Of a DNA stretch of 64,000 nucleotides, positions 8,718 to 54,641 are shown piece by piece (position 1 is the first letter of the stretch; every line of letters starts with the position of its first letter). Source of the stretch: Clostridia bacterium (GTDB lineage Bacteria > Bacillota > Clostridia > Christensenellales > CAG-917). The notes under the pieces are model-generated. The model did no database searches, had not been told where the DNA came from, and saw only the letters and a list, made by a program, of their open reading frames with translations. A program made the translations under genes and the position numbers. Location: assembly GCA_017553325.1 (NCBI GenBank), contig JAFZMH010000009.1:62001-126000 (forward strand), read 5' to 3'.

Positions 8718-8741
8718 AAAGGCACTCTGTGAGTGCCTTTT
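8718..8741. terminator. Bidirectional terminator between convergent genes
   Basis: Perfect 10-bp stem AAAGGCACTC / GAGTGCCTTT with loop TGT. The T run on the plus strand and the A run at the left edge let it serve both the PH-domain gene and the converging gene whose stop overlaps its right arm (8740-8742). Confidence 0.85.
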
Positions 8742-9964: not shown

Positions 9965-9992
9965 TTGACATTTTTCTTTTGAGTGGTATAAT
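9965..9992 (+). promoter_or_regulatory. Consensus promoter of the giant gene
   Basis: Perfect TTGACA (9965-9970), 16-base spacer, perfect TATAAT (9987-9992). Transcription would start near base 9999, giving a leader of ~55 bases. Confidence 0.8.
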
Positions 9993-10013: not shown

Positions 10014-10050
10014 CATACGCGCATTATACGTGCGTATGAGCTTGGAGGAG
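10014..10050 (+). promoter_or_regulatory. 5' leader hairpin next to a strong ribosome binding site
   Basis: Nine-pair stem CATACGCGC / GTGCGTATG (10014-10022 and 10030-10038, one G-U pair) with loop ATTATAC, then five bases, then GGAGGAG (10044-10050) three bases before the ATG. The hairpin could stabilise the long mRNA or limit translation; this is inference. Confidence 0.6.
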
Positions 10051-10053
10051 ATT

Positions 10054-13000
10054 ATGAAAAAGCAAAAAATTTCACTCGTCTTGCTACTCGTATTAGTGGT
10101 CTGCATGATCGCTATGCTTGTGGCTTGCAACCCGACTTCTCGCAAATCAGGCGGAAGCGGATCGACGATTATCGACGTTCCGATAACTCCGACGACGCCG
10201 GGAGAGACCACCGAAAACGAAAGGTATCTCGGCTCGAGAGAGGCGTGGAACATATTGAAACTTGCGGCACTCAACGCCACTGCTCAAGGCAAGGACGCGA
10301 ACTACCTCAATTTCGATACCGCAATCAACTTCGGTTTTGCCAAGGATACATACGACTCGCAGTATCAACTCCGTATAGCCGGCAGCGTGTACAGCGAATA
10401 CGACGTGACTCAGGTAGCAGGCGGCAAAGATCCGAGCTCAATACTCTTCGAACTGCGCAGGACGACGAGAAACGTTCTGCCGAACGGTGACGTCGAGTAC
10501 ATAGCCGAGGACGAGCCTGTCATGAGTCTTTATTATGTAGACGAGGAAATAATCGTTGATATTTCGGGACTCAAGAAAGGCGCGCACGTCGTTAAGACGA
10601 GCGACATCGACCTCGCCGCTCTCGTGAACAAACTCGACGGCATCGTTGATCGTATCGGCATATCCGATCTTCTTTGGGACAAGATTTTGGGTATGAACCT
10701 CGGCAGCTTGCTCAAACAGTTCCTGAATATGGACCTCGTAAACGTGACGCTCGAGGACATCATCGTCAACTTCTTGTTCGGCGCGAACAAGAGTCGTATC
10801 GTCGACTACGGTGAAGGACATACTCAACTCCAAATTCCTTGCGACCTCTCCTTGATCGCAAGCGTTTTGCCAATCGTTCAAAGTTTAATTCCGGAAGACA
10901 TCTTCAGCCTTATTGACAGAGTGCTCGGTATCGACCTCCAAAAGATCAGCGCACTCAGCGGCATGGCTCTCTACCTCCAAGCAGACATCTATGACGACAT
11001 TCTCGCAGGTATGGACGCGGACATCGACGTCAACCTCAACGCATACGGCAAAGAAGAAGTTATCAAGAAATACGGTTTGTTCCAAAACGACATCGGCATC
11101 AACATCGGCTACAAGAAATTTGCGTTCACCGGCGCCTCCGAAGTGGACATCAAAGAGATTGTAAACGAGAAATACGAAGAACAACTCAACAATATTGAAC
11201 AATATTCGCTTCTTACCTTTGAAGGTAAGATGACCGTAAACGTCAACGCAATCGACAAGACCGTCACGATAAATAATATCGTGGGGTCTTTCGGCACTTT
11301 GGTTTCGAATCTCCTCGAACAATATCTCAGCGCAGACTTGCTTGAAAGCCTTGCACCGCTCTTTGCCAAGAACGTGGAATTCCACAAGGGCACATTCACG
11401 TTCGGGCTCAATTTGCAGGGCTCCATTAACACGCGCAATAACGCGGAGACGCGCATAGCGTTCGAACTCGTTTCAGAAAACAACGCGACTGCGCTCGGTA
11501 TCTATTACATAGGCGCACGCAACGCGCTGTACATAGACGCGAGCCATCTCCTGACGGGCGTTCCGGACGGAAACGGCGGCAATACCGGCGCGAAACTCAA
11601 GATTACGCAACTCAACGGTCAACCGCTCGACCTCATTCAAATCGTCGACGGTCTGTTTGACAAGGTCGGAGATATAATCGTCAATGCAATCGACAACATC
11701 GACCTCTTCAAGAAGGAAGACAAGGAGACGTTGCAGGCGGTCAAAGCCGTCTACGACGACGCGGTTGAAAACAATACGATCCTCATCCCGCACAACGGCT
11801 ATACCTCCGCGGACGACGAACAGAGCGTGGATACGATGACGCTCATCAATATGATTCTCGATTGTATTGATATCAATATGGACGGCAACATCTTCAACAT
11901 CACGGAGATCAACGTTCAAATCACGCAGGCGGTCATCGGCGCGATTTTGGGGCTCGTGTTCACGGGCGACAACGCGGGCATAAATATCCCCGTCACCAAC
12001 ATCGACTTGAATTATGCAAACCAAGGCGTTGGAAGGCCGAAGACGCTCAATCTCAACATCGGTTTGGGACTTGACGCAAAAGAACCGCCGGTATCCTTGG
12101 ACGTCAACGGCAGTTTGCAACTGGGTCAACTCACCGATCCTGTCGGCTTCAAAGCGAAGATTTCCGACGTAAGCTCGCATGATGCGTCCTATTTGACCAT
12201 CCTCGAGGACGGCACTCTCGATATATCAAAATTCAACGTTTCGTTGTCGACGGGTATCGCAATCGACCTCTCGACCATTCAAGGCAACCTCGGCGAGGTC
12301 AATCTCGACCTCGGCAAACTCGGCTTGGCGGACGACCTGCTCGAAGGCATGACAGCGCAGATTTTGCTTGCGCTCGGCACGATTCAGGGCGGTCTCAACA
12401 TCAACATCGACGCGAGTATCGACCTTGCGATGGGACTCTCGCTCGACACTCTTCTCAATTCGCAGATAAGAATTACCATCACGAAGCAGACGGACGGAAG
12501 TGAAGTGCTTTCGATTTGTCTTGCGGACGGCTATATCTATCTCGACTTGTCCGTGCTCTTCATCGGCGTTGAAAAGGTCAAGGTCAAAGTTGAAGACATC
12601 ATGAACCTCTTCAAGAAGGACGAAGCAGCCGAAACCGCAACGGACGCTCTTGCGTCCGACGACGAGGACGGCGGTTTGCTTGGCAATATCACGCTGGACA
12701 GCATCATCGGGCTCGTCGGTTTGATCATCGGCGACGTCAAGGTCACTGACGGCTTTATCGAAATCGCCATTGCTTCCGGTATCATCGACAACATCTTGAA
12801 GATGATCGGTATCGAAGGCATTCAAATCAAATTTGAAACGGACGAGGAAGACGGCTCGGTCAAGACGACGGGCGGTATTCGTCTCGCCGTTCCGGACAGT
12901 CTCAGCCTCGACGACTTGCAAGTTGAAGTTTGGCTTGCCGTAGGCAAGAACCTCGACCTCACTGTCGCGCTCGACAAGTTCAGAGCGGGAATCGCGGAGA

Positions 13001-16000
13001 GAGATTTGTCCCCGGAAAACAAGAGAGAATACACGGACATCTTCGAGGTGCCGTGCGTTTCCGTCGATTTGAGACTCGGCTTCGACTTCTACGGCGACGA
13101 AGGCGAGACTAATTTCGAACTCGGTACGAACGCGGAAGACGTGGTCGTCGTTCCATTCACTTTCAACGACCCGATGAAATTCGAATATAAGTTGAGAGTG
13201 GCGGCGGATCTCGACCTCACGCCTGTCATCGACTATATCTTCGGCGCGCCCGCAATCAACACGAAGGACAACGCGAGCGAACTCGTCATTGAACTCACGG
13301 GCTCCAAATTCGACGAGAAAGAAAAGGTGTTGCTCGGCTTGTATTACACGGGCGGCACGCTGTATATCGACGGCGAGAACTTTGGTATAACCAAAGTTTC
13401 AACCGACATAGACTTGTACGAACTCATCCTCAACCTTCTCATGAACGACGTCAACGTCAAGGTCAACGACGTCGGCAGTACGACGTCTGCGGACGCGCTT
13501 GCGTGCGATGACGGCGACGAAAACGACGAACAGGCTTTAAGAGAGAAGATTGCGTTTACCATTATGACTCTCATCACTTCGGACCGCGCGAAGGTCGAGG
13601 TGACGAAGGGTATCACGGAAGCCATCTTCAAAATCTTCGGCGTCGATACGAACAACGCCATCGCATATCTCAGCTACGTTTGGGCGAACTACGAAGAGAA
13701 CGGCTATTCCGGTTCGCAAAGTCAATTCCCGCACGGCGACGAGATGTTCTCGTTTACGGGCGCAATCTACAACGAAAACAACCAATACATCGGCGCTGCG
13801 ACGATTTACGCGAGCCACGAGACCTCAATCAAGGTTGTCAACGGACTCAAAGGCATCAAGCTTTCACGCGAGGTCTATGACCTCAACGGCAATCTCGTCA
13901 CGGTGGAAGAAGACATACTCGACGAAGAAGGCAACAAGGTCGGCGTGCAAGACGTCGCAAAGGACTTCACGCTCACGGAATACGTGCACGCCAGCGCGAT
14001 TCACGGCGGCTTTGACGAAGTCAAGCTCTTTAACGAGAGCAAGGATATCGTGCTGCCGAGCATCTTCTTGGAACTCAAAGGTACGATTTCAATCGGCGCG
14101 TCGGCAGGCAACGAGGAGTGGAGCATAGGCGAATGGATTGCGAACTTCCTGTGCGACACTGACTTCGCGGTGCTTGAAACCGACGACGGCTTGTACACAG
14201 AATTGTACAAATCCATCGGCAACGACAACTATAAACCGCTTACCGCGGCGGAAAAGACCAACTATACGGGCGTAAGATACGTCAAGGAATACGCGGAAGG
14301 CGGCACGATTGCGTTCAACGTCGTTGAGGACAGATCCAACGTGAACGCAAATTCCGAAGTGTACGTTATGGTGGGCGGCAAGTACAGAAAGGTCGACCCG
14401 ACAAAGGTCTTGGAAACGGAACCGCTCTACGCGCAAGACGCATTGACGTCCTTTGTTAGCGACCTACTGTTGCAGTACAACATTCCGTCCGACGTCGGCA
14501 GAGATCTCGGCTTCCGTATCGCCGTCAAGGTTAGACTCAATCCGGAAGTTCCGATCAACCTCACCGCAAACATCAAGTATACGGAAATCGAAGAAGTTGA
14601 CGCTTCTTACACCGAGGTTTACAAGCTCGTAAAGAACGAATACAAAGGTCTCTCCGAAAGCGAGAGATCCGATCCGTCCGTCAAGAAATACGTCAAAGAG
14701 TATTTGCCGGACGGCATTCCGCTCAAGGCTATTTCTTCGAGAGCGGAACTTGAAGGCGTAGAAAAAGTTTACGTCAAAGTCGGCGAAAATTACATCAAGG
14801 TCGACCCGAGCAAAGTCGAGGACGGTACGACGCTTTACATAGCGAAATCTCTGCTTGACCTCGAATACATTTTGTCTCATACGGACCTTGCAATCGAACT
14901 CTACAATCAAGACATAGTAGCGGTTGACGCAATGAAAACGCAAAAGGAAAAGAATGCCGCTACAATCTTTGCAATACGTCTCGTTGCGGAACAAAACTCC
15001 AAAGGAGTTTATACCGGAACGAGTTCACTCTATCTCGATTTCAAAGACGACTTCCATATGGCGATGAGCAACCTCAATCTTGCCTCGCTTCTCGGAACGG
15101 TTATGTCGTTGCTCAGCAAGGACGAAAAGTCCGACGACGCACTCACTCCGGGTGAAAACGAAACGCCTGAAAACTCTTCTGAGGGACACGAAGGCGTGAC
15201 GTCGGCGCTCCTCGACGGAATCGATCTCAATTCGATACTCGAAGACCCGTCCGGTCTCGTCGACACCTTCAAGGGCATCATCGGTGGCGTCATCGACACT
15301 ATCAACGCGGACCAAGAGGGCTTCAAGATCAATCTTGCGGGCGGGCTCGTGCTCATGCTCGTAAATATGCTCACGGGCAAAAAGATTACCGCTGACAAGT
15401 TTTTACAACTCAACCCCGAAGCCAGTTATTTGGAATTCTATTGGGAATACGCGGCGAAATTGAGCCTCGGCATCGACCCGCTCAAACTTGCGGTGGGCTT
15501 GTCTCAAATCAAGATTGAACTCGGCGGAAGCGCAAGCGTATTGCCGAGCGACTTTAACAAGGCGAATTATATGTCCGCAACTCAACTTGACGAGTTGTCT
15601 TTGCAAATGTCCCTCGACTTGAACGCTACGCTCAAGGGACAAGACGAACAAATCAGGTTGGAGAAGTATCTCGACGTACTCGTCGCGGACCTCGGACTCA
15701 AACTCGGCATCGACTTCCCGACGGTGGACATGGATTACAAGTTCAGTCTCACTTTGGGCGCGAATCTCACGCTCAACGACCCGAACAGAACGGAAATCGA
15801 GATTGAAATTTTGAATATGGCGGAGAATGCGGTCAGAGGCGAAATCGTCATGGGCATCTATATCGTCGGTCCGGAACTCTACGTTGACATGGGCAAACTC
15901 GCAGATCAAGCGATCCGCGTCACCAACACCGACCTCGCGGATCGTATCTGCGCCTTTATCAGCAAACTTTTGGGCAGAATCAACGAAGAAGATTTGCTCA

Positions 16001-31000: not shown

Positions 31001-34000
31001 TCAAGTCGGTAGACGTCAATCTCTTCAACAACACCGATTACTATCCGTACTATGACAACATGACGTTGCCGGACAACGCAAACCGCTTCGTGTCCTTGCA
31101 TATCGTGCTCAACAAGAAAGCGTTCAACGAGCTCTTGCTCTTCGTCTACACGATGATACTCAATTTGTTCAAGAAGGATATCGACGCGTCAACGTCAAGT
31201 TATAAGTACTTTACAACGGGTGGCGATTCTCCGGTAAACAAGAGCTGTTCGGACGTGTTGAACGATTTCAACGAATATTACATTGCGTGGTCCAACGAAA
31301 AGTCGGATGACAACTTCGACGATATGGTTGAGTTTATGGAAAGCTATACGAGAGGTTTGCCGTTTACGCTTGAGCATTATTTGGTCTACAACCTTATTTT
31401 GCCGGCTGTCGATTTGCAAGGCATGTACGGCACGGTAGGAACAATGGCGGGCTCAGTGTTGACCAACGTCTCCTGCTTGCTCAACACTCTGTTGCCGTTG
31501 CCGTTTGCAAGCGGTAAAGCAGATCCGAGCATAAATCTCTATATCGACTTGGATCCTGTTCCGTCAGATTATAAATGCGACGGCAAGACGATGCTCCCCG
31601 GCGTGCAGGCGATTGAAATCATGATCAACTGCAAGAAGAACGGCGCGGGCACCGGCATGACGTATAATTCCAATGCAACCAACGGCACAACGAACGCAAT
31701 CGGCAGTTCTTACGACACTTGGTTCTTGCGCATCAACCCGCTCAGCACCAAAGACGCAGGCGTCACAAGCGGCTTGCTCGGGTTTGACGAATCCAAGTCG
31801 GCAGAGGCTATCGACGGTTCGGACGTACCTGAAGAAATCTACATCACGGATCCTGCGACGAGAAAGGGCAACGCGGGCGGACAAGCGTTCGAGTTGACCG
31901 ACAAATTTATCTACAATTCGAGTATGTTCCCGAAGAGAGCGAACGTCACGTTTGCGGAATCGGGCAACCCGGTTTCGTACAGACCGGTTGAAGGCGACGT
32001 CGAGAAATTCGCTTCGCGCGGTACGTATATCACTTGGGATGCTTCGTCAGTAGACCTCAAAGCTCCGAGCTATGAATCCGGCGAGACGGAATATCTTGCG
32101 GGCTACCTCTACGGCTATGCTCTCAACACCGTCGTTTATGCGATTCCGGTTTACGTGACGAGCAACAAGATGGTCACCTCTATCAAGGCGGTTGACACGA
32201 GCAAGTATCCGACGACGCTCAGCGGCAAAGATATCCAAATCGACATAAGGACGCTGGACAAGAACGGAAACGCATCGGCAACGTTCGCAGCTGAATTGCC
32301 GAACCTCATTATGGTCTCCGACAAGAACGGCGACAGAGTATTCGCAACTGTGTCAAGTCTGGGACCCGTCCTCCTCGGCAACGGGGTGCAGGCAAAAGTC
32401 AACAGCGGCGCGAACATCACCGCGGGCAACTTTACCAACGCGGGAGGCGAGACGGTCTATACTGCGGCACTTGTCAGAAATACGGACGGCAGCTACTATC
32501 AATATGAGAAGGACGGCGAGAAATACTACGTTCTCGACAACAATTTGTTGCCGTCAAAGCAGAGCTCGCTCTATCCGGTGGGCACGTTCAGTTGGGACGA
32601 AAAAGATTTCGTCTACTACTGGAGAGGCGGAAGCGAAGACGAGGTAGTGGCGAGCATCGACGTCGATTACACCTACAAGTGGGGCCTTGCGTCCGAGTGC
32701 AGCGGCACGCTCAACATCCCGGTCAAGAACTACAAGATACTTATGACCTCGAAGTTCTACTACGTTGAGAACACAAAGGAAATCAGCGTACAGAAGTTTG
32801 ACAACCTCAATTCGTTCGCGCTCACAACGAACGACCTCGCCGCTTATATCACCAAGTTCGACCACGTAAAGGTTTCAACCGAGTCAGGCACAATCACGAC
32901 GAACGTCAAGTGGGATCTTGGCAACCTCGAAGACGCGCTCAAAGAGGTCGGCAAGGATGACGAAGGCAACTACAACCTCTACAAAGGTATCGACGTGACG
33001 GTCACGGCGTATGTTGGCGGAGACTTATTCAAGACCTTCTCCATCAAGAGCACCAACGCGACGACAGGTTTGGCCACAACTTACGGCTTTGCAGACGAAG
33101 GCTCTACGGACGCCAAGTATGCGAAGGCAGGCTACACTGCGCAACCGATAAGCGTCAAGATTCACGTTTCGCCGAACATCTACAACTCGCTCGAGACCGC
33201 ACTCGTCCTCGATCAATACGAGTCGATAGAATTGACGGGCAATTCGTTCGTGGTCAACAAGCTGAAATTCAACGTTGAGAACAGAAAGGTCGAATCGCAA
33301 AACGTCAACGCTTCCAACGTGTCCATCACGGCTCCGTTCATCTATGACGACGGCAGCTATAAAGACGCGTATGAAGCGGAAGCAATAAGCAGAGAAGGCG
33401 ACATCACCTACAACGGATATTCCGGCAAGAAACTCTACGCGAAACTCACTATCGGCACCGCCAACAGCGGCAAGCAGTCGGTTTATGAGCCGATCACGAT
33501 AAATGCGCTTACGCCGAAGGTTTATGAACTTGCGGTATCGGTTGAAAACGTCTTCAACCCGAAGTGGTATTCCGACATCAATAAGTTGAATATCGACTTC
33601 AAGGGAAGCGGAACGCACGAGATGACCCCTGTATGGTCAGGCATCAAGTACTATTCCGACTCGAGACTCAAGAACGAGATTGAAAATATCTACGGTGGCG
33701 GCGATATCTACGCGACGGTTCCGGCAAAGGTCATTGACGGCAACGATAACGTAGTCGCGTGCGTCATCAAGGACGGAGAGTACGTCCCGCAGACGATTAC
33801 GCTCAAGCTCAGCGTCCCGCAACTGAGTATCGGTGACACGGTCTACTTCTACAACGGAGCGGGAACCGATATTTACAGCTCCAGAAACGGAGATCCGGCG
33901 GTCACGACGCTTGGCAACCTCTACAACATTGCCAAGTATAACGGAACGGTGTATGCGCAGACGCACATTAAGGACGGCATTGCCTACGGTATCGACCCAA

Positions 34001-37000
34001 TCAACTATGCGTTGCATCCGGGAGATTACTTCAAGATCGGCGAGTGGGGCGACGCGGTCAACGGCACAGCGGTTAAGGTGACCGTCGAAGGTGGCGGCGA
34101 GTATATCGCATACCTCAGAAAAGTGACGATCAACACCAACACCATGGAGGTCAAGGGCTTAATCGGCAACAAGTGGGTCGATATCCCGGTCAGAATGCCG
34201 AACTACACTCCGACCATCGTGTTGGGCAACAACGGCGTGTCAACGGTCAGAGTCAAGACCGGTATCGGCGAAATCAGCGCGACGGCTATGGTATTCCAGT
34301 TCGACGCGCACTATGAATGGAAGTTGCCATCCACGGTCTTGATGGGTACGGAGAGCGGTCCTGCGGGCGGAGTCGTTCAAGACATCTACTGGCTCGACGA
34401 CAGCGCTCCGACAAAGGACGAACTCGTAAGCGACGGCGACGATCAATACATCGTGAGATACTATCGCTTCCACGACGGCGTAGAATTCAGCGAGGAATAT
34501 CCCGCAAAGATCTACATCGTCAATATGGAATTGCAGGAAGGCGACGAGGTGACCATCAATTATGAGGGCGGAGTCAAACCCGATTACACCCCGTTCGCGG
34601 AATTCGTGTTCCCGACAACCGCGACGATTACTCCGGCAGAAGGCGCAGCCAGCCCGTCGGTGACGGTCACGTGGAGCGCAGGTTTGCCGACAGATGAAGA
34701 AATCAGCCAAGGCTCATTCAAGAGATACGCATACGTCGGCGTCGACATCACCACGCTTGAAGTCACGTTCAACGTGTCCAAGAAATTTGAATTCAGACCG
34801 GAAGAGGGATTCGTCACGGAAACCGTCGACGAAGTGAAGGTCGTTTCCTTCGAACTCGGCGATGAAGCAAGCGCCTACAACGGTTTGCCGAGAAACGGTA
34901 AGATCGTCATCGGCGAAAACGAAGGCGCAACCGAAGTCGACGTCGAATACTACTGGAATCTCGAATACTCGCTTGATGAAGGTTATAACGGCGAGGCTGA
35001 ACTCATAGTCAAGAACGAGCACTTCGCAGTGTCCGTTCCGGTTCAACTCCACATCGTGGCAAGCACGAGCGCAGTCAGCTTCAAGACGCTCGGCGAAGAT
35101 TACGTCAGATTGGCAACGAACGAAGACTACGATGGCAACAAGTACTTGAGAAAGGACTACAAGATCGTCGAAGGCGTCCTCATTGAGTTGACAGGCGACG
35201 ATATCGGCACGTATTTGGGCAAGAGATATACTAAACTCAGCGAAGTCGAATACGAGCTGAGCGCAGACGGCAACTACAAGAAGGAAGGCAACAACTACGT
35301 GTTGATGACCGAAGCCGAAATCGGCTACATCGGCAACAGAGCCGTCAAGTACGTGCTGAATGAACAAGGCAACTACAAGAAGGTCGAAAAGAACTTGCTC
35401 GTCATCGACCCGTACGGCATAGAAGGCACGCTCTTCGCGTCAGGCGCAAAGGCGACAGTCCTCACTGCAAACGGAAACGAAGTCGAGGTTACAGGCTACT
35501 ACACGTTGCCGAAAGACTTCTACTCAGGAGCAAGCAAGTACTTTGGCAAGACCTTGACTCTCGAAGTCAGCCTGGTGCGCAACGGCGGCAAGGACGATAC
35601 CGTCACCGAGAAACTCTCGGTTGACGTGTACGTGCTTGACAGAACCGTGAAGTACGTCAAAGATACGGAATACCGCGCACTCTCAATCGACCCGTTCTAC
35701 GTCAACAACATCGACGGTCTCACAAAAGAATTGACGATTGCGACGTTCAAGGATAAGGTCGGCGTCGTGGCACTCGACGGACAAGGCAACAAGGTCTATG
35801 CGACGACGACAGAGTTTGCCGTGACGATTGATTGGAGCGGAGTTGCAAAACTCATCTCCGAATACAAGAGCGACTTCACGTTTGTGACGAACGCTACGAC
35901 GACTTACGTCGACGAAGCGGGCGAGACGATCAACGTCGTACAAAAAGTCGCGGTCCCGATCACTATCTTGAACCGTATCATAGTTGACGCAGACTTCGAT
36001 CCTGAAGATGAGGTCGACGAGAACGGCGACAAGGTCTACGAATTCTTGTACACCGACGACAGCAAGACCGCAACTATCACCGATACGTATCGCAGCTTGA
36101 ACGATGGTGAAGGCAACTATTTCCAGATCGTGTTTGCGAGAACCGGCGGTAGCTTCCCGAGACAATTCATCTTCGAGAATCAGTTCGCATACAAGGGAGT
36201 CGCAAGCTTGCCGCAACGCACGAAGTTCACGTTTGAAGACGGCGTCTCCAACTACTACAGATTGACGTATGAGAACGTTCCTGATCCTGACCCGATCAAG
36301 TTGTCCGCAGGCTCTACTACGAGACGTAACGTCAAGGTCAACATCTGGAGCGGCAACCCGAACGTCGATCCGACAGGCGACGGCACTGACGGCAGATTCA
36401 AGATTATGACCATCGGCGTCGAACTCGTCGTTCGCCCGGTGGCTACAACCATCAACAACACCGACATCGCCTACATCGATTTGTCTGCGGGCGACTACGC
36501 CAACAACTTCGACGCATATCCGACTGGCGCGTCAAGAGCGAACTCCGTGTACGGAGCAGAGCTCCCGTCAAGCGTCACCTACTACGTCGGCGGTATGTTC
36601 TTGAAGCGCGCAACGTGGACGACGCAGGGCGAACCGGGCGACACCGTCAACGTCGAGTGGACGAGACTCCACAGCATCTACAGAGTGTACGAAGACGCGT
36701 TGGGCAACGAAGTCACCTACGATTACAGCGACGTCACGAGAACGTACTCCAAGCATACGGAGGCAGGTCAAGGCGATTACATCTACATCTACGTGACCAC
36801 GCATACGTTGAATGCGAAGTGGGACGTCAGCGGCTTGTCTTACACCTACACGGGCGGCGTATCCTACGCAAAGGCAACGCTTGAATCCGAAGCAAGATAC
36901 GTCTTGATTGAGGAAGGCGAAGTGGTTGCGGAGAGCGACAGATACAACGAGAACGGCACGCAGAACAATAACGGCTTGTACAGAAAGCAAGTTATCGGCT

Positions 37001-38619
37001 CTACAATCAAGGTCCCGATCTATATCAACAGCGGTAAGGCGAAGGTCGCGCCGAACGGCGATGCGGTTTACAGCTTCACCGATACGGTAAACGCAACAAC
37101 CGGCAAGTTCTACGATACCACGAACAACTTGTTCAAGGTCAACCCGTATGATACGACGGTGGGCGGCGACTTCTTCGCAAGAGTGGCAACCTACAACGGT
37201 CAGAGATACAAACGCGTCACTAAGGACGACGGAACCGTTTCGTATGAGAAGGATGCGAAGGGCGCCTACAAGAAGGTCGGCGACGACAAGTATGAAGCGC
37301 TCACCTACAGCGAACTCGGCAACTACACGTACTTCCCGAGCACAGTCAAGTTGACTCTGGCGGACGGCAGTCAAAAGGTTGTCAACGTACAATGGGATTT
37401 CAGCGCGATATCCATCACTTATGCGGGCGGCGAATTTACGGCGTACGCACTCATCAACGGCGACGGCAACGGTAGGGGCGAATATGATTACTGGAGACTA
37501 GGCACAGAGGATAAAGAAACCGATTCCATCAACGCAATCGGCGTCCAAAAACTCAAAGTCACGTTCACGGTTATCGACGGCTCGGTACAATCGATTGCAA
37601 CAGAAAGCGACAATTATCTCAAAGCCAACAGCACGGGTTATATCAACGGCACGTCGTTCATCGATCCGTATGATTACAGCAATCCGACTGTGCCGACATC
37701 GCTCACGGTCAACATCAAGAATCCAAGCGGCAACGGCACGACCACCAAGGTCTACACGACCGGTACTCCGACGACAGGTCAAGGCAAGCTCACTTGGAGC
37801 TTCTCAACCTTCCGTCCGAACTATAAGGGTGGTTTGACGTACGTGACGGCACTCTTGAAGGGTGAAGACGGAACGACGCAAAAGTACGAGATTCCGTACA
37901 AGGTATACAGAATGACGGCAGCGTCCTTGATGTCGAACTATTCGGGCACACTACGCAAGTCCAACCACTTGAGCGGTAGCGTCGGCAGCTTGAGTTATAC
38001 TATCGACCCGTACAACGGCTACTCGCTGGCATTGCCGACAGGTTATAAGGTCACGTTTACCCGTGAAGAACCGGTGATAACGGACGGCAAGTTCACAGGC
38101 GACTTTGAAAACTCGAGCAGCCTGCCGCATACGTTCAACTACGTCATAGTGACGACTCCGACGGCGCTTGATTACTACCTTGACGACACGCAATGGAAGT
38201 CTCACGGCAGTGGCAAGACGGCGACGATCCAACTCTCCAACCAAGAAGTCATCGACGTCACGCTCAACGTCACGACCACGACTGCAATCTCGTCGTTCAC
38301 GACGCCGTCAGGAAACTCTTCGGGACTTGCGAAGACAACCACAATAAATGGCGGTTCGACAAAGGTCCCGGTCGTATGGTACGGTACCGCGAAGATAGGC
38401 ACGATGGAGGAACACACGGTTGTCTTCTCGGGCTATGACGATCCTGATGATAACACCGACAACCTTATCGCCGTGACCAAGTATAAAGGCAGAACGGTCA
38501 CCTACAAGTTGACTCCGTACATCGGCGCAATAGTCGATAAGAACGGCAACATAGTGGTGAGCGAAGACGGCGAACCCGTTGCGGCAAAGAAAGGTAGCCA
38601 GATTCAATTCACGGCATAA
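10054..38619 (+). CDS. Giant modular secreted lipoprotein, 9,521 residues
   Basis: The true start is the ATG at 10054, after GGAGGAG; the frame is open 25 codons further upstream but without a ribosome binding site. The signal peptide is MKKQ followed by a hydrophobic run and lipobox LVAC, giving lipid-modified Cys25. No other membrane segment and no LPXTG or S-layer motif was seen, so the N-terminal lipid is the only anchor. Layout: residues ~150-6860 hold about fifteen beta-rich modules, each with a G-[IL]-Y-x-x-x(n)-L-Y-[IV]-D signature, mostly followed by an acidic DAL-type linker and an amphipathic stretch. Aromatic repeat blocks are inserted at several sites, and a charged coiled-coil lies at ~4063-4140. 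Residues ~7265-9521 are Ig-like repeats. It is acidic, rich in Asp, Asn, Gly and Tyr, and poor in Cys. Mass is about 1 MDa by residue count. Codon use matches its neighbours and no frameshift is seen over 28.6 kb. Function unknown; a long surface fibre or lipid/glycan-binding scaffold is inference. Confidence 0.93.
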   Translation: MKKQKISLVLLLVLVVCMIAMLVACNPTSRKSGGSGSTIIDVPITPTTPGETTENERYLGSREAWNILKLAALNATAQGKDANYLNFDTAINFGFAKDTYDSQYQLRIAGSVYSEYDVTQVAGGKDPSSILFELRRTTRNVLPNGDVEYIAEDEPVMSLYYVDEEIIVDISGLKKGAHVVKTSDIDLAALVNKLDGIVDRIGISDLLWDKILGMNLGSLLKQFLNMDLVNVTLEDIIVNFLFGANKSRIVDYGEGHTQLQIPCDLSLIASVLPIVQSLIPEDIFSLIDRVLGIDLQKISALSGMALYLQADIYDDILAGMDADIDVNLNAYGKEEVIKKYGLFQNDIGINIGYKKFAFTGASEVDIKEIVNEKYEEQLNNIEQYSLLTFEGKMTVNVNAIDKTVTINNIVGSFGTLVSNLLEQYLSADLLESLAPLFAKNVEFHKGTFTFGLNLQGSINTRNNAETRIAFELVSENNATALGIYYIGARNALYIDASHLLTGVPDGNGGNTGAKLKITQLNGQPLDLIQIVDGLFDKVGDIIVNAIDNIDLFKKEDKETLQAVKAVYDDAVENNTILIPHNGYTSADDEQSVDTMTLINMILDCIDINMDGNIFNITEINVQITQAVIGAILGLVFTGDNAGINIPVTNIDLNYANQGVGRPKTLNLNIGLGLDAKEPPVSLDVNGSLQLGQLTDPVGFKAKISDVSSHDASYLTILEDGTLDISKFNVSLSTGIAIDLSTIQGNLGEVNLDLGKLGLADDLLEGMTAQILLALGTIQGGLNINIDASIDLAMGLSLDTLLNSQIRITITKQTDGSEVLSICLADGYIYLDLSVLFIGVEKVKVKVEDIMNLFKKDEAAETATDALASDDEDGGLLGNITLDSIIGLVGLIIGDVKVTDGFIEIAIASGIIDNILKMIGIEGIQIKFETDEEDGSVKTTGGIRLAVPDSLSLDDLQVEVWLAVGKNLDLTVALDKFRAGIAERDLSPENKREYTDIFEVPCVSVDLRLGFDFYGDEGETNFELGTNAEDVVVVPFTFNDPMKFEYKLRVAADLDLTPVIDYIFGAPAINTKDNASELVIELTGSKFDEKEKVLLGLYYTGGTLYIDGENFGITKVSTDIDLYELILNLLMNDVNVKVNDVGSTTSADALACDDGDENDEQALREKIAFTIMTLITSDRAKVEVTKGITEAIFKIFGVDTNNAIAYLSYVWANYEENGYSGSQSQFPHGDEMFSFTGAIYNENNQYIGAATIYASHETSIKVVNGLKGIKLSREVYDLNGNLVTVEEDILDEEGNKVGVQDVAKDFTLTEYVHASAIHGGFDEVKLFNESKDIVLPSIFLELKGTISIGASAGNEEWSIGEWIANFLCDTDFAVLETDDGLYTELYKSIGNDNYKPLTAAEKTNYTGVRYVKEYAEGGTIAFNVVEDRSNVNANSEVYVMVGGKYRKVDPTKVLETEPLYAQDALTSFVSDLLLQYNIPSDVGRDLGFRIAVKVRLNPEVPINLTANIKYTEIEEVDASYTEVYKLVKNEYKGLSESERSDPSVKKYVKEYLPDGIPLKAISSRAELEGVEKVYVKVGENYIKVDPSKVEDGTTLYIAKSLLDLEYILSHTDLAIELYNQDIVAVDAMKTQKEKNAATIFAIRLVAEQNSKGVYTGTSSLYLDFKDDFHMAMSNLNLASLLGTVMSLLSKDEKSDDALTPGENETPENSSEGHEGVTSALLDGIDLNSILEDPSGLVDTFKGIIGGVIDTINADQEGFKINLAGGLVLMLVNMLTGKKITADKFLQLNPEASYLEFYWEYAAKLSLGIDPLKLAVGLSQIKIELGGSASVLPSDFNKANYMSATQLDELSLQMSLDLNATLKGQDEQIRLEKYLDVLVADLGLKLGIDFPTVDMDYKFSLTLGANLTLNDPNRTEIEIEILNMAENAVRGEIVMGIYIVGPELYVDMGKLADQAIRVTNTDLADRICAFISKLLGRINEEDLLTSSDAYTASDDVSADEALGIMLTLANGKLGVLIAENIIIGLISALAGNNEVVNGKSLTEIIQEFGLDLVLDVDISLDPVAFNLSLDSSLIALEIALSNLGLATGTDSVTSQDISDTLHAAIARKDYVKIGEGEIVDPEDKFDADGTPNPDGIYKEVDHFVQQPDSHVLSIGLALVIDYSACATFVLVDDATLANYSLDERYAKNAYDGKFVKDPKGHYVRDGFTYDQLLDTVFHLAQLADIMSFALPVVSFGGDNFVTTETDGSLTVGALLEHLGLSVFFDSAINDGLLIELGLKIDLEKLGLFDEETGDLKEVNTIVITGENILRALEAKIEIDFDYENQRNNTKIGLYLVDGEIYLDLSGIGSEKVKIGIDPILDLLTEALKFDIRDFEFSVGGVIDTVKGKIQDALASADGDEETSSGSDNILGFLDGFTNASGIVAIVNAAISRISLEAEKWAKNPDLYKIKDIGIFLSANIVNDLLSLITSDEIFFDQSVLDDEQSGIFLTFDDDSFANVADDMWSLRLLFALANKEDVNADANAEDKTYKIDLKFGVNFDVKLESIQTTESLVPNDDRLNFISLDEYLGNLLNVFNKVLDCTYDEVTSTQKDKLYYTFTEDPSGDHVFQNGTYRKILSKEETDKTHFRRGFAVVVAGKGRAVTFVQDNDGNYVYNEEKDIYVPVYAGVGANNRYRAIISQDVLPESVKLYARNDIEDYVDQNISFSVAGLVYFNSNGADTFNLGGLFESLFGEMLIELQTLQAFDNGIGFKLSANVDLGAINFAGLVDGSGEHGSILDSDFDKIELALELIETNERNDFVKIQKRDGTEVDKVLGGIYLHNGSLYLDATGLVDVVENYSKVDNFMTVLSAIIDKGKGLIGSISNLFGNKEETQDALAAAEGGDNEVARDAILALIYGDKALQVQLTRSILALLISSILPDLGSIEEVFDMFEISLNIQHGEEQFLKVSDIEKDVLDYADKTKHYEFKVGDDKYYVSDSYDIYHQDGEGNYVLALYDGEKTNYVYFKNDYRQVLRRLTTVELFDTELYADERYTYFAEENYETVDNENGKYAAVDFDGDGKSDKYLPISIYKLYHKDPLSGELVANEDNKFDTSVGAINYIVYNGVEKKVSNMRTRRVGFTKSYGKDYTLDKTGTYKKVGEEYFALTEEEYDEGNPAYITPTQRYLKEGDYYRAIRYYTRLDEFFVGLDISVGSMSMGFKVGGLSFGFGAGQTLLPSYIRDSKAHTYIDNNNTPLNPSDDVEYLYDPNDAKAVELTEDLSTNPFYDTIIRVAFSIEIDFSITESTFDFGKILHNILGNIDGIVFEAPSTAKHYSSAHFRLDFSLMLDMYDITNSELTAELYSLTETGYESKWLGIYYLNNALYIDAEEFFNIPKISIGGFNIVDLLGEILGMDSDGIFIHWDDYAETSADALAAADDDKSIDFTNEELAVAFLISRNNLAIGIGDKMFDYIIDLISDLTDVDLAKFIYTAIDGNLSVNLNTGNGINLEAIAGMKIAGDRYNEVGLASAVQDQVAKAITKNAREYFVFKSAASDARALANTQAGYYVPSDSGQYFRVVTPTETDVENLYVKYRLRYNTEASRLEMTLVRDNGEADEDSEGVKWLELSADDVIYELVTGDTSNKSTVADGGKYDIDLKLLLAIKDLDVQFINSRNYALNEEDFDEYMSLNDLDRISLTEKIEISPSLKVGEDIDLSELIEYFIPSISSDEIKALISAKADDGGDINREFWLEVTVDIQLAALMNAVRTSVDYGTEGDLSIMTYVNMLIDKISGLFSGGLSVNGIIDIIQNIASYIGISIRITTLNGAEKAAGQEPHNVFGIYLVGGTYELMVADEYDENHDDYIAPEFRYSHYYENKQGSYYYNAQSGTYIYDKTKTGVTRYSYDSSYCYANPLGEYKRINGGVYIDLSYFNLPSIEINSKSMRKFISNLPSLLKQFGVELGSKNSEETDALTPDEGSGEQGESNESGSNESGSNEQSNQGALSGARDRIKLPLIDDTVSGYLKTFLYGIRMTSSYIAVMLDPNYINNLLSLIGGEDFTLQFDADDFTSRPELKVYADNHRYQYLSLQEVLADIVACKDKIDVVDGELDAIDAYINEIDDEATIAARTAEKADEKAAKQAEKDELVEDRQEAIDVAEKLLNSTRYRFTVEQVAGTENGMYFVDDDGAALLKIDMTVSQRKTYDKAVTDGHYVEMSNEEALAYLGQKYRKTSTGFVPDNVEGTYKLEYKHYYDISVINTYIKVGEDKYVLYKDASTSQLRSTDADAKLAEYGVTFPQLYVYVDLTDDGEDNPKYETIFDYGFANLYCVKVLDNRNPLIGLQLYIWDYELALNIYMPEFDAREFVYVSAEEAEAHNVDAPDGAKYTSQIQELMTAVDRELDGTYQWRRDYYEGLAFSSIKYDANPRYYEYKNKYYPITGETLCTKSLSGDVYTPVGTMVDFIENIIAGNTYYVKVGNNYVKLQRSFVYRKTTYDLDGKRLMTAEEVEDPAYISDSAGSYKKNVIDANHVEYLALEDEAKGTYVGKRYTAVEDHRHGAYKFVGTDYVLITDGYDGMRYSIQESHAGTHKKVGAGYVKLTDEEKGTFEGERYTPYYVRDVQDSLVQQPDQAYVDTDDLFYISMKLSGRIAFEGGKKFVDYDTYKELFTTAGHSLDAGEVPMETLKYIAYKYFHGSYEQVTEEDEIISLRKAGALYVWLNSALDSEHSGVNEQLSEVLRGILGDMQGYFQVKEKTKMEIFFEIKLNMSFEINFTPSFNVIVRDLDLAVDAWGRQEDLKTNPIDYTEDEYEYLTEEERKTYDGELYYGSLTHVLGIYYTNDHDTGNAGLYIDLSWLLGAGGKMYIDLSEYTIEDLLGGLVGGLLNKASSDALTSGDAADENINYAALYLSIFTNAFALKLTTNFLKVVLGEALPDAGNILDMLPNVQIYLKQALNPYDLTLGLRLYNEAGDTPILDVLLQIYGLNGDALSSSIAFGREEDFRAHEDPNDPNYIFYYANFYNDQENGGYAKIGTGKGYVKVSEIEGTFEESSLGRYKLAAGKYVPMTDKEAGSYKDLRYKVELDNEHGTYKQEGLNYVLIEGVYGGDKFTITESSQGTLKLVEDHYEELAYNAQTGAERGTYSGKRYLTHTPHERLSQSEGVFTEVTSKARYAFGSPHVLTYDNLLYEDEMAQTSIFGDKTYRDVVNTRAFREYTGPLYVRNTNENKIEYVTKLDLAGFTGVNELQYVLAGKFVDLGGEVYGGDKYVMEGRTFTHDDENGTHKLVKSINSINATQYAGLNAIITADYEVYVPVDGTFDNLGNFTFGGGDGHTDMNEADAIAPETKVYKYVRNFTDYTQIGAMNLNDLIGEITDGTFEITSLLKSFEAFETLELNVNMDLGLRLKDIINWSKILGDFVDDRNIAETVYFLASSLQTDNTSFESTIGLDFSLHVYLNVQNLIGALTSPYGFNIVDALKGTIVYLELVYDTNFHGKDKAKARLWIEVTDDYYNNEGELVEGGKINGYIDMKEIGEIVGLGDYFSYGLVKDVDINNLLSKASGLLGGLTSASGDAYVSADDDDALKSTGILPENIWTIVNAIIGRLLVAEDFVTIGLDENLMNGVIRLLLGEGNEDLVKLVEKLPHLRTTDNRDTSGITINFYGSAPTIDLNFGWVVGKEYNLTLDAYNDKFAYILRSETEAPDGYIAGGGQYWNKSYVVDDVDGIYWYDSDKDKYVLREEFLPSDAYIGTIGTSTHYYNSTYTADGSGKYWLNAANKLALGNNELMYVNEELCEGADVNVDKVVVSTEQYALMAFAYPDWAGETYKYVLANDKFTEAPSGKYLKLGDFNLGASIYGINATANKPFSYGTAEETMMKDELGNDISDQFVTFANAHFGLDVSIGVSIYGSGTHGDANIIDLSELLDLVLGLLAPNSAISGSTLRLNIVNQLGYADRDFVSLNIKAFIDNNNFNITDPTKPMFNIQAAIELILNRAEVNGGSQVLVGIYLDQDAAYVDLSKVLGSTAKISITNLGVNKIVAELLSGLVTANDSDALASGEEDIAIIESNMMDIPYVLLRVNPQILMLQINADVVNVVYKKIMALRGREQKNLIPDIGDLMLKGTTLGEYVLRSSVSEPVDYSGDYWDRHYDVNDVSGKYWYDTTHQAYVLRTEVAPSASYISGIGSTTHYYDFSGTYDKNNVGVGGKYWRNDGTVTMLDLRFSDGFYASLSIPKLKVTKSNPGIVDLMAKSQGLALGNAGDYYAYVGTGYISTQVLPAPANVDKFIYSEGEFVEVDDEETFWYSKTPFAMTTSPTKNVYSVAKNGAYVNVDGEYVAYNVNTHGTNVTRYSKTTVSNYKHNGTSSFYQLALTADASKGGLIGGADLEVAIETIGLELGLTMTMTSNNYSKSTNREKYDASIFGWLENTLGTLLSGVSAVGEYKTLSSRVDDYKGKYFIKKDGKYEEVDKENTYWRDPSDSTKYYPISSVAKTYAGKFYKLEEEEYIEIATTLYWFKTAEFNFTFTSIPIEVFITLKANINLPAILKYGISGVLFSDLALEVGMGDPINKTFMKLYYLGSSRLTEEPAGAEGHQLTQSKTGVYSDAIYIDLTGMGLGKIKFQGLAGILGAKTGGIVGEEATTAGEAMTVAEEETVAEALFLEIALENNRTSVTFDKSLLDFALGLLKLNLPFDLPPIQSATMSLISDGGDLNEVNLNILLDSVGTAANIKIKPLTLGFGDDFLDMNALIGEVQAGYAGVTYSKTAGLFNLIQNALDSIHPGLYIAIDKRINSYYNGAENDGLFDIDNVSTVETTNEATSMSLKLNKSSAAVKEGETHYVLNGQLAAHHPSAETVDISANLFIGSGNLYIGDFNFVSGALGVLLNIATALVSALRPISLEGGKAEDTSFVDELLKWNDDAGTEHKSIVRSVDGDNSGWNYPEYTEAPKVDKSKVKVTLYGLRTQTDVYQYNGTGEGEKKKPDDYSGSMYTYNEATDTFTSGSGPYWLESTTFEYAYPLELTNLIKSVDVNLFNNTDYYPYYDNMTLPDNANRFVSLHIVLNKKAFNELLLFVYTMILNLFKKDIDASTSSYKYFTTGGDSPVNKSCSDVLNDFNEYYIAWSNEKSDDNFDDMVEFMESYTRGLPFTLEHYLVYNLILPAVDLQGMYGTVGTMAGSVLTNVSCLLNTLLPLPFASGKADPSINLYIDLDPVPSDYKCDGKTMLPGVQAIEIMINCKKNGAGTGMTYNSNATNGTTNAIGSSYDTWFLRINPLSTKDAGVTSGLLGFDESKSAEAIDGSDVPEEIYITDPATRKGNAGGQAFELTDKFIYNSSMFPKRANVTFAESGNPVSYRPVEGDVEKFASRGTYITWDASSVDLKAPSYESGETEYLAGYLYGYALNTVVYAIPVYVTSNKMVTSIKAVDTSKYPTTLSGKDIQIDIRTLDKNGNASATFAAELPNLIMVSDKNGDRVFATVSSLGPVLLGNGVQAKVNSGANITAGNFTNAGGETVYTAALVRNTDGSYYQYEKDGEKYYVLDNNLLPSKQSSLYPVGTFSWDEKDFVYYWRGGSEDEVVASIDVDYTYKWGLASECSGTLNIPVKNYKILMTSKFYYVENTKEISVQKFDNLNSFALTTNDLAAYITKFDHVKVSTESGTITTNVKWDLGNLEDALKEVGKDDEGNYNLYKGIDVTVTAYVGGDLFKTFSIKSTNATTGLATTYGFADEGSTDAKYAKAGYTAQPISVKIHVSPNIYNSLETALVLDQYESIELTGNSFVVNKLKFNVENRKVESQNVNASNVSITAPFIYDDGSYKDAYEAEAISREGDITYNGYSGKKLYAKLTIGTANSGKQSVYEPITINALTPKVYELAVSVENVFNPKWYSDINKLNIDFKGSGTHEMTPVWSGIKYYSDSRLKNEIENIYGGGDIYATVPAKVIDGNDNVVACVIKDGEYVPQTITLKLSVPQLSIGDTVYFYNGAGTDIYSSRNGDPAVTTLGNLYNIAKYNGTVYAQTHIKDGIAYGIDPINYALHPGDYFKIGEWGDAVNGTAVKVTVEGGGEYIAYLRKVTINTNTMEVKGLIGNKWVDIPVRMPNYTPTIVLGNNGVSTVRVKTGIGEISATAMVFQFDAHYEWKLPSTVLMGTESGPAGGVVQDIYWLDDSAPTKDELVSDGDDQYIVRYYRFHDGVEFSEEYPAKIYIVNMELQEGDEVTINYEGGVKPDYTPFAEFVFPTTATITPAEGAASPSVTVTWSAGLPTDEEISQGSFKRYAYVGVDITTLEVTFNVSKKFEFRPEEGFVTETVDEVKVVSFELGDEASAYNGLPRNGKIVIGENEGATEVDVEYYWNLEYSLDEGYNGEAELIVKNEHFAVSVPVQLHIVASTSAVSFKTLGEDYVRLATNEDYDGNKYLRKDYKIVEGVLIELTGDDIGTYLGKRYTKLSEVEYELSADGNYKKEGNNYVLMTEAEIGYIGNRAVKYVLNEQGNYKKVEKNLLVIDPYGIEGTLFASGAKATVLTANGNEVEVTGYYTLPKDFYSGASKYFGKTLTLEVSLVRNGGKDDTVTEKLSVDVYVLDRTVKYVKDTEYRALSIDPFYVNNIDGLTKELTIATFKDKVGVVALDGQGNKVYATTTEFAVTIDWSGVAKLISEYKSDFTFVTNATTTYVDEAGETINVVQKVAVPITILNRIIVDADFDPEDEVDENGDKVYEFLYTDDSKTATITDTYRSLNDGEGNYFQIVFARTGGSFPRQFIFENQFAYKGVASLPQRTKFTFEDGVSNYYRLTYENVPDPDPIKLSAGSTTRRNVKVNIWSGNPNVDPTGDGTDGRFKIMTIGVELVVRPVATTINNTDIAYIDLSAGDYANNFDAYPTGASRANSVYGAELPSSVTYYVGGMFLKRATWTTQGEPGDTVNVEWTRLHSIYRVYEDALGNEVTYDYSDVTRTYSKHTEAGQGDYIYIYVTTHTLNAKWDVSGLSYTYTGGVSYAKATLESEARYVLIEEGEVVAESDRYNENGTQNNNGLYRKQVIGSTIKVPIYINSGKAKVAPNGDAVYSFTDTVNATTGKFYDTTNNLFKVNPYDTTVGGDFFARVATYNGQRYKRVTKDDGTVSYEKDAKGAYKKVGDDKYEALTYSELGNYTYFPSTVKLTLADGSQKVVNVQWDFSAISITYAGGEFTAYALINGDGNGRGEYDYWRLGTEDKETDSINAIGVQKLKVTFTVIDGSVQSIATESDNYLKANSTGYINGTSFIDPYDYSNPTVPTSLTVNIKNPSGNGTTTKVYTTGTPTTGQGKLTWSFSTFRPNYKGGLTYVTALLKGEDGTTQKYEIPYKVYRMTAASLMSNYSGTLRKSNHLSGSVGSLSYTIDPYNGYSLALPTGYKVTFTREEPVITDGKFTGDFENSSSLPHTFNYVIVTTPTALDYYLDDTQWKSHGSGKTATIQLSNQEVIDVTLNVTTTTAISSFTTPSGNSSGLAKTTTINGGSTKVPVVWYGTAKIGTMEEHTVVFSGYDDPDDNTDNLIAVTKYKGRTVTYKLTPYIGAIVDKNGNIVVSEDGEPVAAKKGSQIQFTA
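14188..14842 (+). repeat. Duplicated aromatic insert (first pair) in the giant gene
   Basis: Two copies of an ~80-residue insert, 14188-14432 and 14602-14842. Shared order: LYKSIGNDNYK or VYKLVKNEYKG, then TAAEK or SESER, then a VKEY segment, then EVYVMVGGKYRKVDPTKV or KVYVKVGENYIKVDPSKV. They interrupt the module order. Confidence 0.75.
22240..22470 (+). other. Charged coiled-coil segment inside the giant protein
   Basis: About 75 residues (from DIVACKDKIDVVDGELDAI through EKLLNSTRY) rich in Ala, Glu, Lys and Asp with heptad-like spacing, including TAEKADEKAAKQAEKDEL. It is the only long helical, coiled-coil-like stretch in a protein that is otherwise mostly beta. Confidence 0.65.
23512..23815 (+). 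repeat. Aromatic tandem repeat block in the giant gene
   Basis: Three tandem units of about 30-37 residues of the form G-[ST]-Y-K-K-V-G-x-x-Y-V-x-L-T-x-x-E-x-G-T-x-x-G-x-R-Y. Examples are GAYKFVGTDYVLITDGYDG and GTHKKVGAGYVKLTDEEKG. The pattern recalls aromatic carbohydrate-binding repeats, but no family is claimed. Confidence 0.75.
25036..25410 (+). repeat. Aromatic tandem repeat block in the giant gene
   Basis: Four units of the same type as at 23512: GGYAKIGTGKGYVKVSE, GRYKLAAGKYVPMTDKEAG, GTYKQEGLNYVLIEGVYGG and GTLKLVEDHYEELAYN. Two units end in a G-x-R-Y or L-R-Y box. Confidence 0.75.
27028..28590 (+). repeat. Internal duplication of an ~85-residue YW-rich unit, spaced 1.3 kb apart
   Basis: Copies at 27028-27276 and 28324-28577. 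Shared landmarks in order: YVVDDVDGIYWYDS or YDVNDVSGKYWYDT, then YVLREEFLPSDAYIGTIG or YVLRTEVAPSASYISGIG, then STHYY or TTHYY, then GKYWLN or GKYWRN. Each copy sits between the module core and the next module, so the insert was copied with or between modules. Confidence 0.8.
31850..38619 (+). repeat. C-terminal Ig-like repeats of the giant protein
   Basis: About 2,250 residues made of repeats of ~100-180 residues. Each runs through a conserved [VT]-x-W-[DS] strand (TYITWDASSVDL, NVKWDLGNLED, NAKWDVSGLSYTYTGGV, NVQWDFSAISITYAGGE, KLTWSFSTFRPNYKGG), often a Y-x-G-G turn, and ends in [VI]-P-[IVY]-x-[VI] before the next unit (AIPVYVTS, VPVQLHIV, VPITILN, VPIYINSG, IPYKVYRM). This matches the general look of bacterial Ig-like surface domains. 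The protein ends KKGSQIQFTA with no wall-sorting signal. Confidence 0.75.
35090..35395 (+). repeat. Aromatic tandem repeat block within the Ig-like region
   Basis: Same repeat type as at 23512 and 25036, here inside the C-terminal part: GEDYVRLATNEDYDGNKYL, an incomplete unit ending GTYLGKRYTKL, GNYKKEGNNYVLMTEAEIG, and GNYKKVEKN. The same insert therefore invaded two different domain types. Confidence 0.7.
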
Positions 38620-38673: not shown

Positions 38674-38704
38674 AAGAACATACCTTTTGGAGGAACAAAC
38701 AAAA

Positions 38705-46139: not shown

Positions 46140-46238
46140 CTTTGTCAGATTTACGTGCACTCGCAGTCACGTACAGCAAGTACGCTCGTGCTCGCGTGCG
46201 CATCTTTCGCGTCATCCATCAATCCTGAGCGATTTTTG
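46114..46238 (+). repeat. Dispersed intergenic element, divergent copy D, with 17-bp inverted repeat
   Basis: Arms CAAAAATCGCACAGGAT (46114-46130) and ATCCTGAGCGATTTTTG (46222-46238) pair with one mismatch. The left arm is inside the esterase gene and its stop lies just beyond. Between them is a second hairpin with CGTAC AGCAA GTACG at its tip. The order (head ending in a TGTCA box, hairpin, then TCATCCATC) resembles copies A-C, but identity is low, so kinship is uncertain. It directly precedes the AT-rich CoiA-like gene. Confidence 0.5.
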
Positions 46239-46262
46239 ATAATATATATTTGTAGCAAAGAT

Positions 46263-54560: not shown

Positions 54561-54589
54561 TTGACAATAATATTTAAAAATATTAGAAT
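54561..54589 (+). promoter_or_regulatory. Promoter of the acyltransferase-like gene at 54642
   Basis: Perfect TTGACA (54561-54566), 17-base spacer, TAGAAT (54584-54589). This shows that the upstream in-frame TTG is promoter DNA and not the start codon. Confidence 0.75.
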
Positions 54590-54641
54590 ATATGAGCAAA
54601 TTCAAAAAACTCGCAAATTTTTGCGTTTATCGCCGGAGAAT

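Follow-up and report, generated by a model that had tools for sequence, protein, structure and literature searches.

A megadalton lipoprotein of ordered, divergent beta-rich domains and its relatives in the Christensenellales

Our analysis revealed a giant bacterial lipoprotein whose first ~6,700–7,100 residues consist of ~14–15 highly divergent two-lobed beta-rich domains. No curated family is matched by the main repeated domain, which by sequence comparison is a new protein family. The observation is judged stronger than it was first stated in the initial annotation, because relatives encode similar giants that together make up a conserved lipoprotein family with this unrecognised main domain.

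The giant gene and its domain layout

The gene lies in the window (the whole 64,000-nucleotide stretch analysed) as one intact frame, running from the ATG at 10054 to the stop at 38619 with zero internal stops, and its 9,521-aa product has a computed mass of 1,049,980 Da (1.05 MDa). The ATG at 10054 is taken as the start because a GGAGGAG and a promoter with 12/12 consensus matches lie upstream of it (Table 1). Shuffling of the upstream region gave a mean of 0.8 promoter-like sites, any quality counted, and promoters with 10–12/12 matches were found ~84–102 nt 5' of the start in 13 of 19 relatives. The promoter and its counterparts suggest that the gene may form a transcription unit of its own and may be strongly transcribed.

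The N-terminus of the protein (MKKQKISLVLLLVLVVCMIAMLVAC) is a lipoprotein signal peptide with the lipobox LVAC and Cys25, as in bacterial lipoproteins, and a motif scan detected a lipobox at the N-terminus of relatives as well. The signal peptide is the sole transmembrane-like stretch, besides which there are a few amphipathic hydropathy peaks of 1.6–1.9; inspection of the whole protein, which ends in SQIQFTA, found no LPXTG and no C-terminal transmembrane segment or anchor. The codon usage of the giant correlates with that of nine neighbour genes (r = 0.93). A foreign origin was rejected, as codon usage and synteny fit the host. A search of viral contigs gave no match. The intact frame, the lipobox as the only membrane anchor and the host-like codon use, all proposed in the initial annotation, were therefore borne out.

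Table 1. Features of the giant lipoprotein gene and its surroundings. Positions are those of the window unless a locus is named; all beta-domain boundaries are approximate.
Feature	Position	Strand	Remarks
HGSNAT-type membrane acyltransferase, upstream neighbour	8740..9714	-	syntenic in most family loci
Sigma-70 promoter TTGACA-16-TATAAT	9965..9992	+	12/12 consensus matches
Shine-Dalgarno GGAGGAG	10044..10050	+	just 5' of ATG 10054
Giant lipoprotein gene	10054..38619	+	9,521 aa
Lipoprotein signal peptide and lipobox LVAC	10054..10128	+	Cys25
Beta domain D0	10231..11103	+	residues ~60-350
Beta domain D1	11176..12153	+	residues 375-700
Beta domain D2	12196..13023	+	residues 715-990
Beta domain D3	13051..13773	+	residues 1000-1240
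Insert between D3 and D4	13774..14463	+	residues 1241-1470
Beta domain D4, with inner insert	14491..15543	+	residues 1480-1830
Beta domain D5	15571..16383	+	residues 1840-2110
Insert	16384..16728	+	residues 2111-2225
Beta domain D6	16741..17733	+	residues 2230-2560
Beta domain D7	18136..18903	+	residues 2695-2950
Insert	18904..19563	+	residues 2951-3170
Beta domain D8, most conserved	19576..20553	+	residues 3175-3500
Beta domain D9, with inner insert	20941..22293	+	residues 3630-4080
Large Tyr-rich insert	22294..23850	+	residues 4081-4599
Beta domain D10	23851..24963	+	residues 4600-4970
Tyr-rich insert	24964..26028	+	residues 4971-5325
Beta domain D11	26041..27003	+	residues 5330-5650; weak profile match
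Insert	27004..27423	+	residues 5651-5790; copy resembles residues 6091-6173
Beta domain D12	27436..28338	+	residues 5795-6095
Insert	28339..29043	+	residues 6096-6330
Beta domain D13	29461..30183	+	residues 6470-6710
Possible 15th, degenerate beta domain	30184..31398	+	residues ~6711-7115; weak, sequence inspection only
Junction domain	31423..31770	+	residues 7124-7239
Ig-like tail, at least 5 Big_4-like units	31918..38616	+	residues 7289-9521
Big_4 (PF07532) match	37318..37461	+	E 1.7e-8
SPFH and zinc ribbons, downstream neighbour	38687..39829	+	syntenic in family
Second exported protein in short-form relatives	L126:591-4217	-	
Second exported protein in short-form relatives	L133:11582-15127	+	
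Second exported protein in short-form relatives	L125	-	next to repeat protein

The initial annotation had also described ~15 beta-rich modules, aromatic inserts and Ig-like repeats, each of which was recovered. Profile–profile self-comparison showed that the same unit recurs from about residue 80 to 6,700, and an iterated HMM search detected 349 domain cores across 29 proteins, of which the giant contains 13 (at most 18 elsewhere). The core consensus, here called lobe 1, is a meander with the terminal pattern ELaLELyd...LGIYYvGGtLYLDLSGLGlpKiKIdglDLsdLLgdLL, after which an Ala/Asp-rich linker (SSDALAxDD) leads to lobe 2, consisting of a strand, a helix and three strands (GyIsLnLTenLIdALLgaL...LgLgLelgvDLDLsdLaLnvnLDSngldLGLsLgdInI). 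As the first domain of a short relative is complete, with lobe 1, linker and lobe 2 in this order, the domain register could be fixed; in this register, most inserts follow lobe 2 and lie between two domains.

Tyr-rich hairpins make up the inserts, with 15 copies detected in the giant and 2 to 17 in relatives where detected, and the insert length differs between species. The same Tyr-rich hairpin repeats as in the inserts of the giant are also present (ELTAAERGTYTGKRYSLVDDKYVESSQGNYKKSGSEYIELTAEEKGTYTGKRYT) in an unrelated membrane protein encoded on another contig (C3) of this genome (L155:6288-9569, + strand). The Tyr-rich hairpin is perhaps a short repeat spreading among exported proteins. 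The junction domain at residues ~7124–7239 occurs once in each of the 19 family proteins reaching so far, and the tail after it contains at least five detectable Ig-like units, one a clear Big_4 match (Table 1). Big_4-like units occur only after residue ~7,289.

The repeats announced by the initial annotation are real but are not near-copies, since the cores within the giant share a mean identity of 20% (maximum 28%). Between genomes of the family, cores that occupy equivalent positions are 34% identical, as compared with 19% at different positions, and in 144 of 175 cases a core found its best match at its own position; between families, the positional correspondence is lost. Because each core resembles its counterpart in other genera more than its neighbours, the domain order was set before the family diversified and is ancient. 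That the repeats are not interchangeable argues that single domains may have their own partners or ligands. As position-specific identity has been kept, the domains are likely more than spacers, and the fixed order and strong conservation argue against simple spacer repeats.

Relatives, distribution and selection

In the first search, 33 of 100 genomes contained a relative, and all 33 belong to the same family. Collinear homologs are present in 19 other genomes of the family, one of which (G005) is cut by its assembly, and most of the 19 relatives fetched are full-length, comprising 6,203 to 10,437 residues in collinear arrangement with 21–58% identity. The relative in Christensenella sp. UBA1260, which is cut by the contig end, shares 72% identity over the stretch compared. 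For this pair, dN/dS was ~0.13 over 4,850 codons (0.08–0.21 by region), a rough ratio with dS near saturation. Purifying selection is strong along the compared part, inserts included.

When 15 orthologs of one module were combined into a profile (A1), 93 of the order's 396 genomes searched gave relatives, belonging to six families and mostly in frames of 7,000 to 12,531 residues, and a broader profile of the module core from 62 sequences (A6) matched in 83 of 297 genomes and added a seventh family. Relatives thus occur in about one quarter of the order's sampled genomes, mostly with 6,000–12,500 residues, and the six further families of the order hold divergent homologs of 1.6–12.5 kaa. In one of these (f5), the proteins are mostly shorter (1.6–3.4 kaa), and the layout of lipobox, few modules and Ig-like end is kept. 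Profile searches of ~400 and ~300 genomes of the phylum outside the order gave essentially no match. A 403-aa lipoprotein of genome G022 with a weak match to the N-terminus was dropped, as it has no visible module. Literature searches found no description of this family.

Since repetitive genes misassemble easily, the giant could in principle be an artefact of gene prediction or assembly, or decaying repeat DNA, and in two genomes (G019 and G021) it is missing and the contig ends close to the SPFH gene. For that reason the giant was perhaps lost to assembly in these two genomes. Against such an artefact stand the collinear stop-free frames in many independent genomes, the dN/dS of ~0.13 and the conserved start signals; the independent homologs refute this reading, to which we assign a probability close to nil. 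Four genomes labelled as the same genus (G003, G004, G016 and G017) contain neither the giant nor a close SPFH neighbour.

Identity of the repeated domain

Pfam and NCBIfam scans of the whole giant returned only Big_4 plus chance-level matches, among which the weak matches to COG6_N, Nepo_coat_N and CglE were rejected as chance, and PDB profile searches with three alignments gave no chain at E <= 10. These results agree with the initial annotation, which had recognised no described family in the modules. For DUF6612 (PF20316), no piece of the giant matched at E <= 1, which is short of the Pfam gathering cut-off. The sole reproducible outside match of our profiles, in ~700 Bacillota genomes, was to two orthologous 276-aa lipoproteins of one genus, with E-values of 1.9e-4 and 5e-3 that are per genome; the first of the two is a DUF6612 member according to Pfam. 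When the domain was compared with DUF6612 by hhalign, P was 0.025–0.5 and the similarity was limited to one YYxxGxLYxD hairpin. Lobe 1 scored 17.3 against DUF6612, while 40 decoys gave a mean of 10.9 (sd 2.1, maximum 17.2), and lobe 2 gave no match. Membership of the main domain in DUF6612 was rejected, as the gathering cut-off was not reached and profile–profile similarity did not extend over the domain.

The AlphaFold models were of low confidence, with a mean pLDDT of 41.6 for residues 553–1215 (with paralog rows) and of 52.6 for residues 1712–1988, the latter unit being in the wrong register, namely lobe 2 of one domain with lobe 1 of the next. These models (pTM 0.27–0.29) place ~6–8 strands before a helix and linker, followed by a strand, a helix and strands. 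Foldseek searches with both against the PDB gave no match at E <= 0.001, and the Foldseek lists (pneumolysin, herpes gB and others) were discarded as meaningless at such model confidence. The profile search and structure prediction of a module that the initial annotation had proposed thus gave no confident fold.

The predicted order of elements in the domain is a meander up to a YYxGGxLYIDLS hairpin, a helix with a flexible acidic linker, and a strand, a helix and three strands. In the LolA beta-clam, an 11-stranded antiparallel sheet, a lid loop connects the first 6 strands to the remaining 5 (PMC6363788), and the order predicted here looks like that of a LolA beta-clam of the DUF6612/LprG-like kind. 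We are therefore somewhat inclined to regard the main domain as a LolA-like beta-clam. Members of the LolA/LolB superfamily (DUF6612 PF20316, LprG/LppX, RseB/SsdC) likewise have a lipoprotein or exported setting, a sheet, a helical or flexible lid and a strand-helix-strands element, as predicted for the giant, and a YYxxGxLYxD-like hairpin is common to both. They are, however, single domains, whereas the giant has ~14–15 per chain, no significant sequence match and models of low confidence only. The suggestion of the initial annotation that the modules look like lipid- or glycan-binding units is thus upheld in part, by the predicted topology, and weakened by the near-chance DUF6612 comparison and the low-confidence models.

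Genomic setting and possible function

In the family loci, a GH127-like protein, a bacterial PH domain and the HGSNAT-type acyltransferase are often conserved upstream, and in several genera a GH20 hexosaminidase, a PIG-L deacetylase and an aldose-epimerase-like protein lie between these and the giant. Downstream are SPFH and zinc-ribbon proteins and, in the genera with GH20/PIG-L, an AEC-type transporter. PIG-L and aldose-epimerase-like genes also adjoin giants of another family. The neighbours of the giant are intracellular sugar enzymes and membrane proteins, with no secretion or adhesion genes among them. Omp85 was undetectable in the genome (1.34 Mb in 10 contigs, 97% complete), while diderm control genomes were positive; therefore, the host cell most likely has a single membrane.

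Several further genes were observed around the giant and its relatives. The window contains two condensation/PapA-like acyltransferases (3039-4340 and 54561-55973), the first being syntenic with the giant in several relatives; a membrane protein (2078-2917) that weakly matches Bax1-I and DUF1129 and is syntenic with the giant in close relatives; a CoiA-like competence protein (46155-47246), where GC content falls locally to 0.41; and a short alanyl-tRNA-synthetase-like protein of 596 aa with only tRNA-synt_2c and SAD domains (56012-57802). The upstream region of the giant in family f24 encodes a lipoprotein that combines Ig-like and transglutaminase-like domains (L130:5628-8642, - strand). The short-form relatives are directly followed by another exported protein of ~1,200 aa (Table 1), one of which was scanned and has an MBG_2 domain; this second protein is a possible partner.

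We consider the chances about even that the giant is a lipid-anchored, wall-crossing surface stalk presenting its Ig-like tail in attachment or envelope organisation. Judging from the signal peptide, the protein would be exported via Sec, and its lipidated N-terminus would hold the chain in the outer leaflet of the cytoplasmic membrane. The ~14, possibly 15, different two-lobed domains in fixed order would form a stalk of 60–70 nm at 4–5 nm per domain, enough to span a Gram-positive wall, so that the junction domain and the Ig-like tail of ~2,230 residues would be exposed on the outside. The Tyr/Lys-rich hairpin inserts, which for the most part separate domains and differ among species, may provide extra exposed binding surface, and tail and inserts together may bind host, partner-cell or wall glycans. 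The layout of lipobox, beta domains and Ig-like tail recurs in shorter relatives of another family. Against a stalk, such strong conservation would be unusual in a mere presenter, the neighbourhood has no secretion or adhesion genes, and some genomes labelled as the same genus are without the giant.

Two other roles must be weighed against the stalk. The 14–15 domains might be LolA/LprG-type beta-clams in tandem, each holding a lipid, glycolipid or other hydrophobic ligand that is passed from domain to domain, either outward across the wall or back towards the membrane. The predicted strands, helix, flexible lid and strand-helix-strands fit the beta-clam of PMC6363788, the only reproducible outside match is a DUF6612 lipoprotein, lobe 1 scores just above the decoy maximum, and two condensation/PapA-like acyltransferases and a membrane acyltransferase are encoded nearby. 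The DUF6612 match nevertheless comes down to one hairpin at P ~0.025, with lobe 2 unmatched and E-values counted per genome; moreover, without Omp85 an outer membrane as lipid destination is missing, and a relay would be broken by the inserts, which put up to 500 residues between one domain and the next. We thus rate a tandem carrier as rather unlikely, and it is decidedly unlikely that an array of LolA-type beta-clams in one chain of 1 MDa stores ligands or conveys them across the wall, from membrane to surface, in a single-membrane bacterium.

The neighbouring GH20 hexosaminidase, PIG-L deacetylase, HGSNAT acyltransferase and GH127-like protein in several genera, together with the PIG-L and aldose-epimerase-like gene beside the giant in another family, would suit a scaffold that captures glycans or organises the wall, binding amino-sugar polymers such as mucin, peptidoglycan or teichoic acid and working with the linked GlcNAc enzymes. 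On inspection, however, the GH20 and PIG-L neighbours have no signal peptide, the giant is preceded by a promoter of its own, queries with neighbours from the window find no match near the giants of other families, and no carbohydrate-binding module was recognised in the giant, so that this role appears unlikely.

With regard to known systems, the reading as an adhesin or long fibre given in the initial annotation is compatible with our data. Giant Ig-repeat adhesins, such as that of Mobiluncus mulieris with 7,651 aa (PMC10619420) and SiiE (PMC6272769), are likewise single-chain surface proteins of the megadalton class with Ig-like domains. In the present protein, however, Ig domains make up only the last quarter and the stalk is another, unrecognised domain; the anchor is an N-terminal lipid without a wall-sorting signal, and the repeats are only ~20% identical. 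The giant thus departs from the plan of the Ig-repeat adhesins, its chain being not mainly Ig-like and having no LPXTG or C-terminal membrane anchor, and its order-set divergent domains are unlike the near-identical repeats of giant adhesins. Bridge-like lipid transfer proteins (VPS13, AsmA/TamB) are also very long, beta-rich and membrane-attached repeat proteins, an analogy only; a Pfam scan of the whole protein found no AsmA, Chorein-N or TamB domain, a second membrane to connect is unlikely as no Omp85 was detected, and the domains of the giant are split by flexible linkers and inserts. The giant genes of Omnitrophota and others share the size class of >5,000 aa (PMC11573180); the text of that survey mentions neither Christensenellales nor lipoproteins.

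The main domain and, within the reach of our searches, the whole protein were previously undescribed, and one domain of 240–320 aa is small enough to express. About 2% of the DNA of a small 1.34 Mb genome is spent on this one gene, which is under strong selection and has a consensus promoter, and relatives in seven families of one order keep the giant gene. If the protein is a lipid carrier, it would be a third lipid-transfer architecture beside shuttles and continuous bridges, and the beta-clam array, if right, would be without precedent in the literature searched. If it is an adhesin, the giant may explain how uncultured Christensenellales hold on to surfaces.
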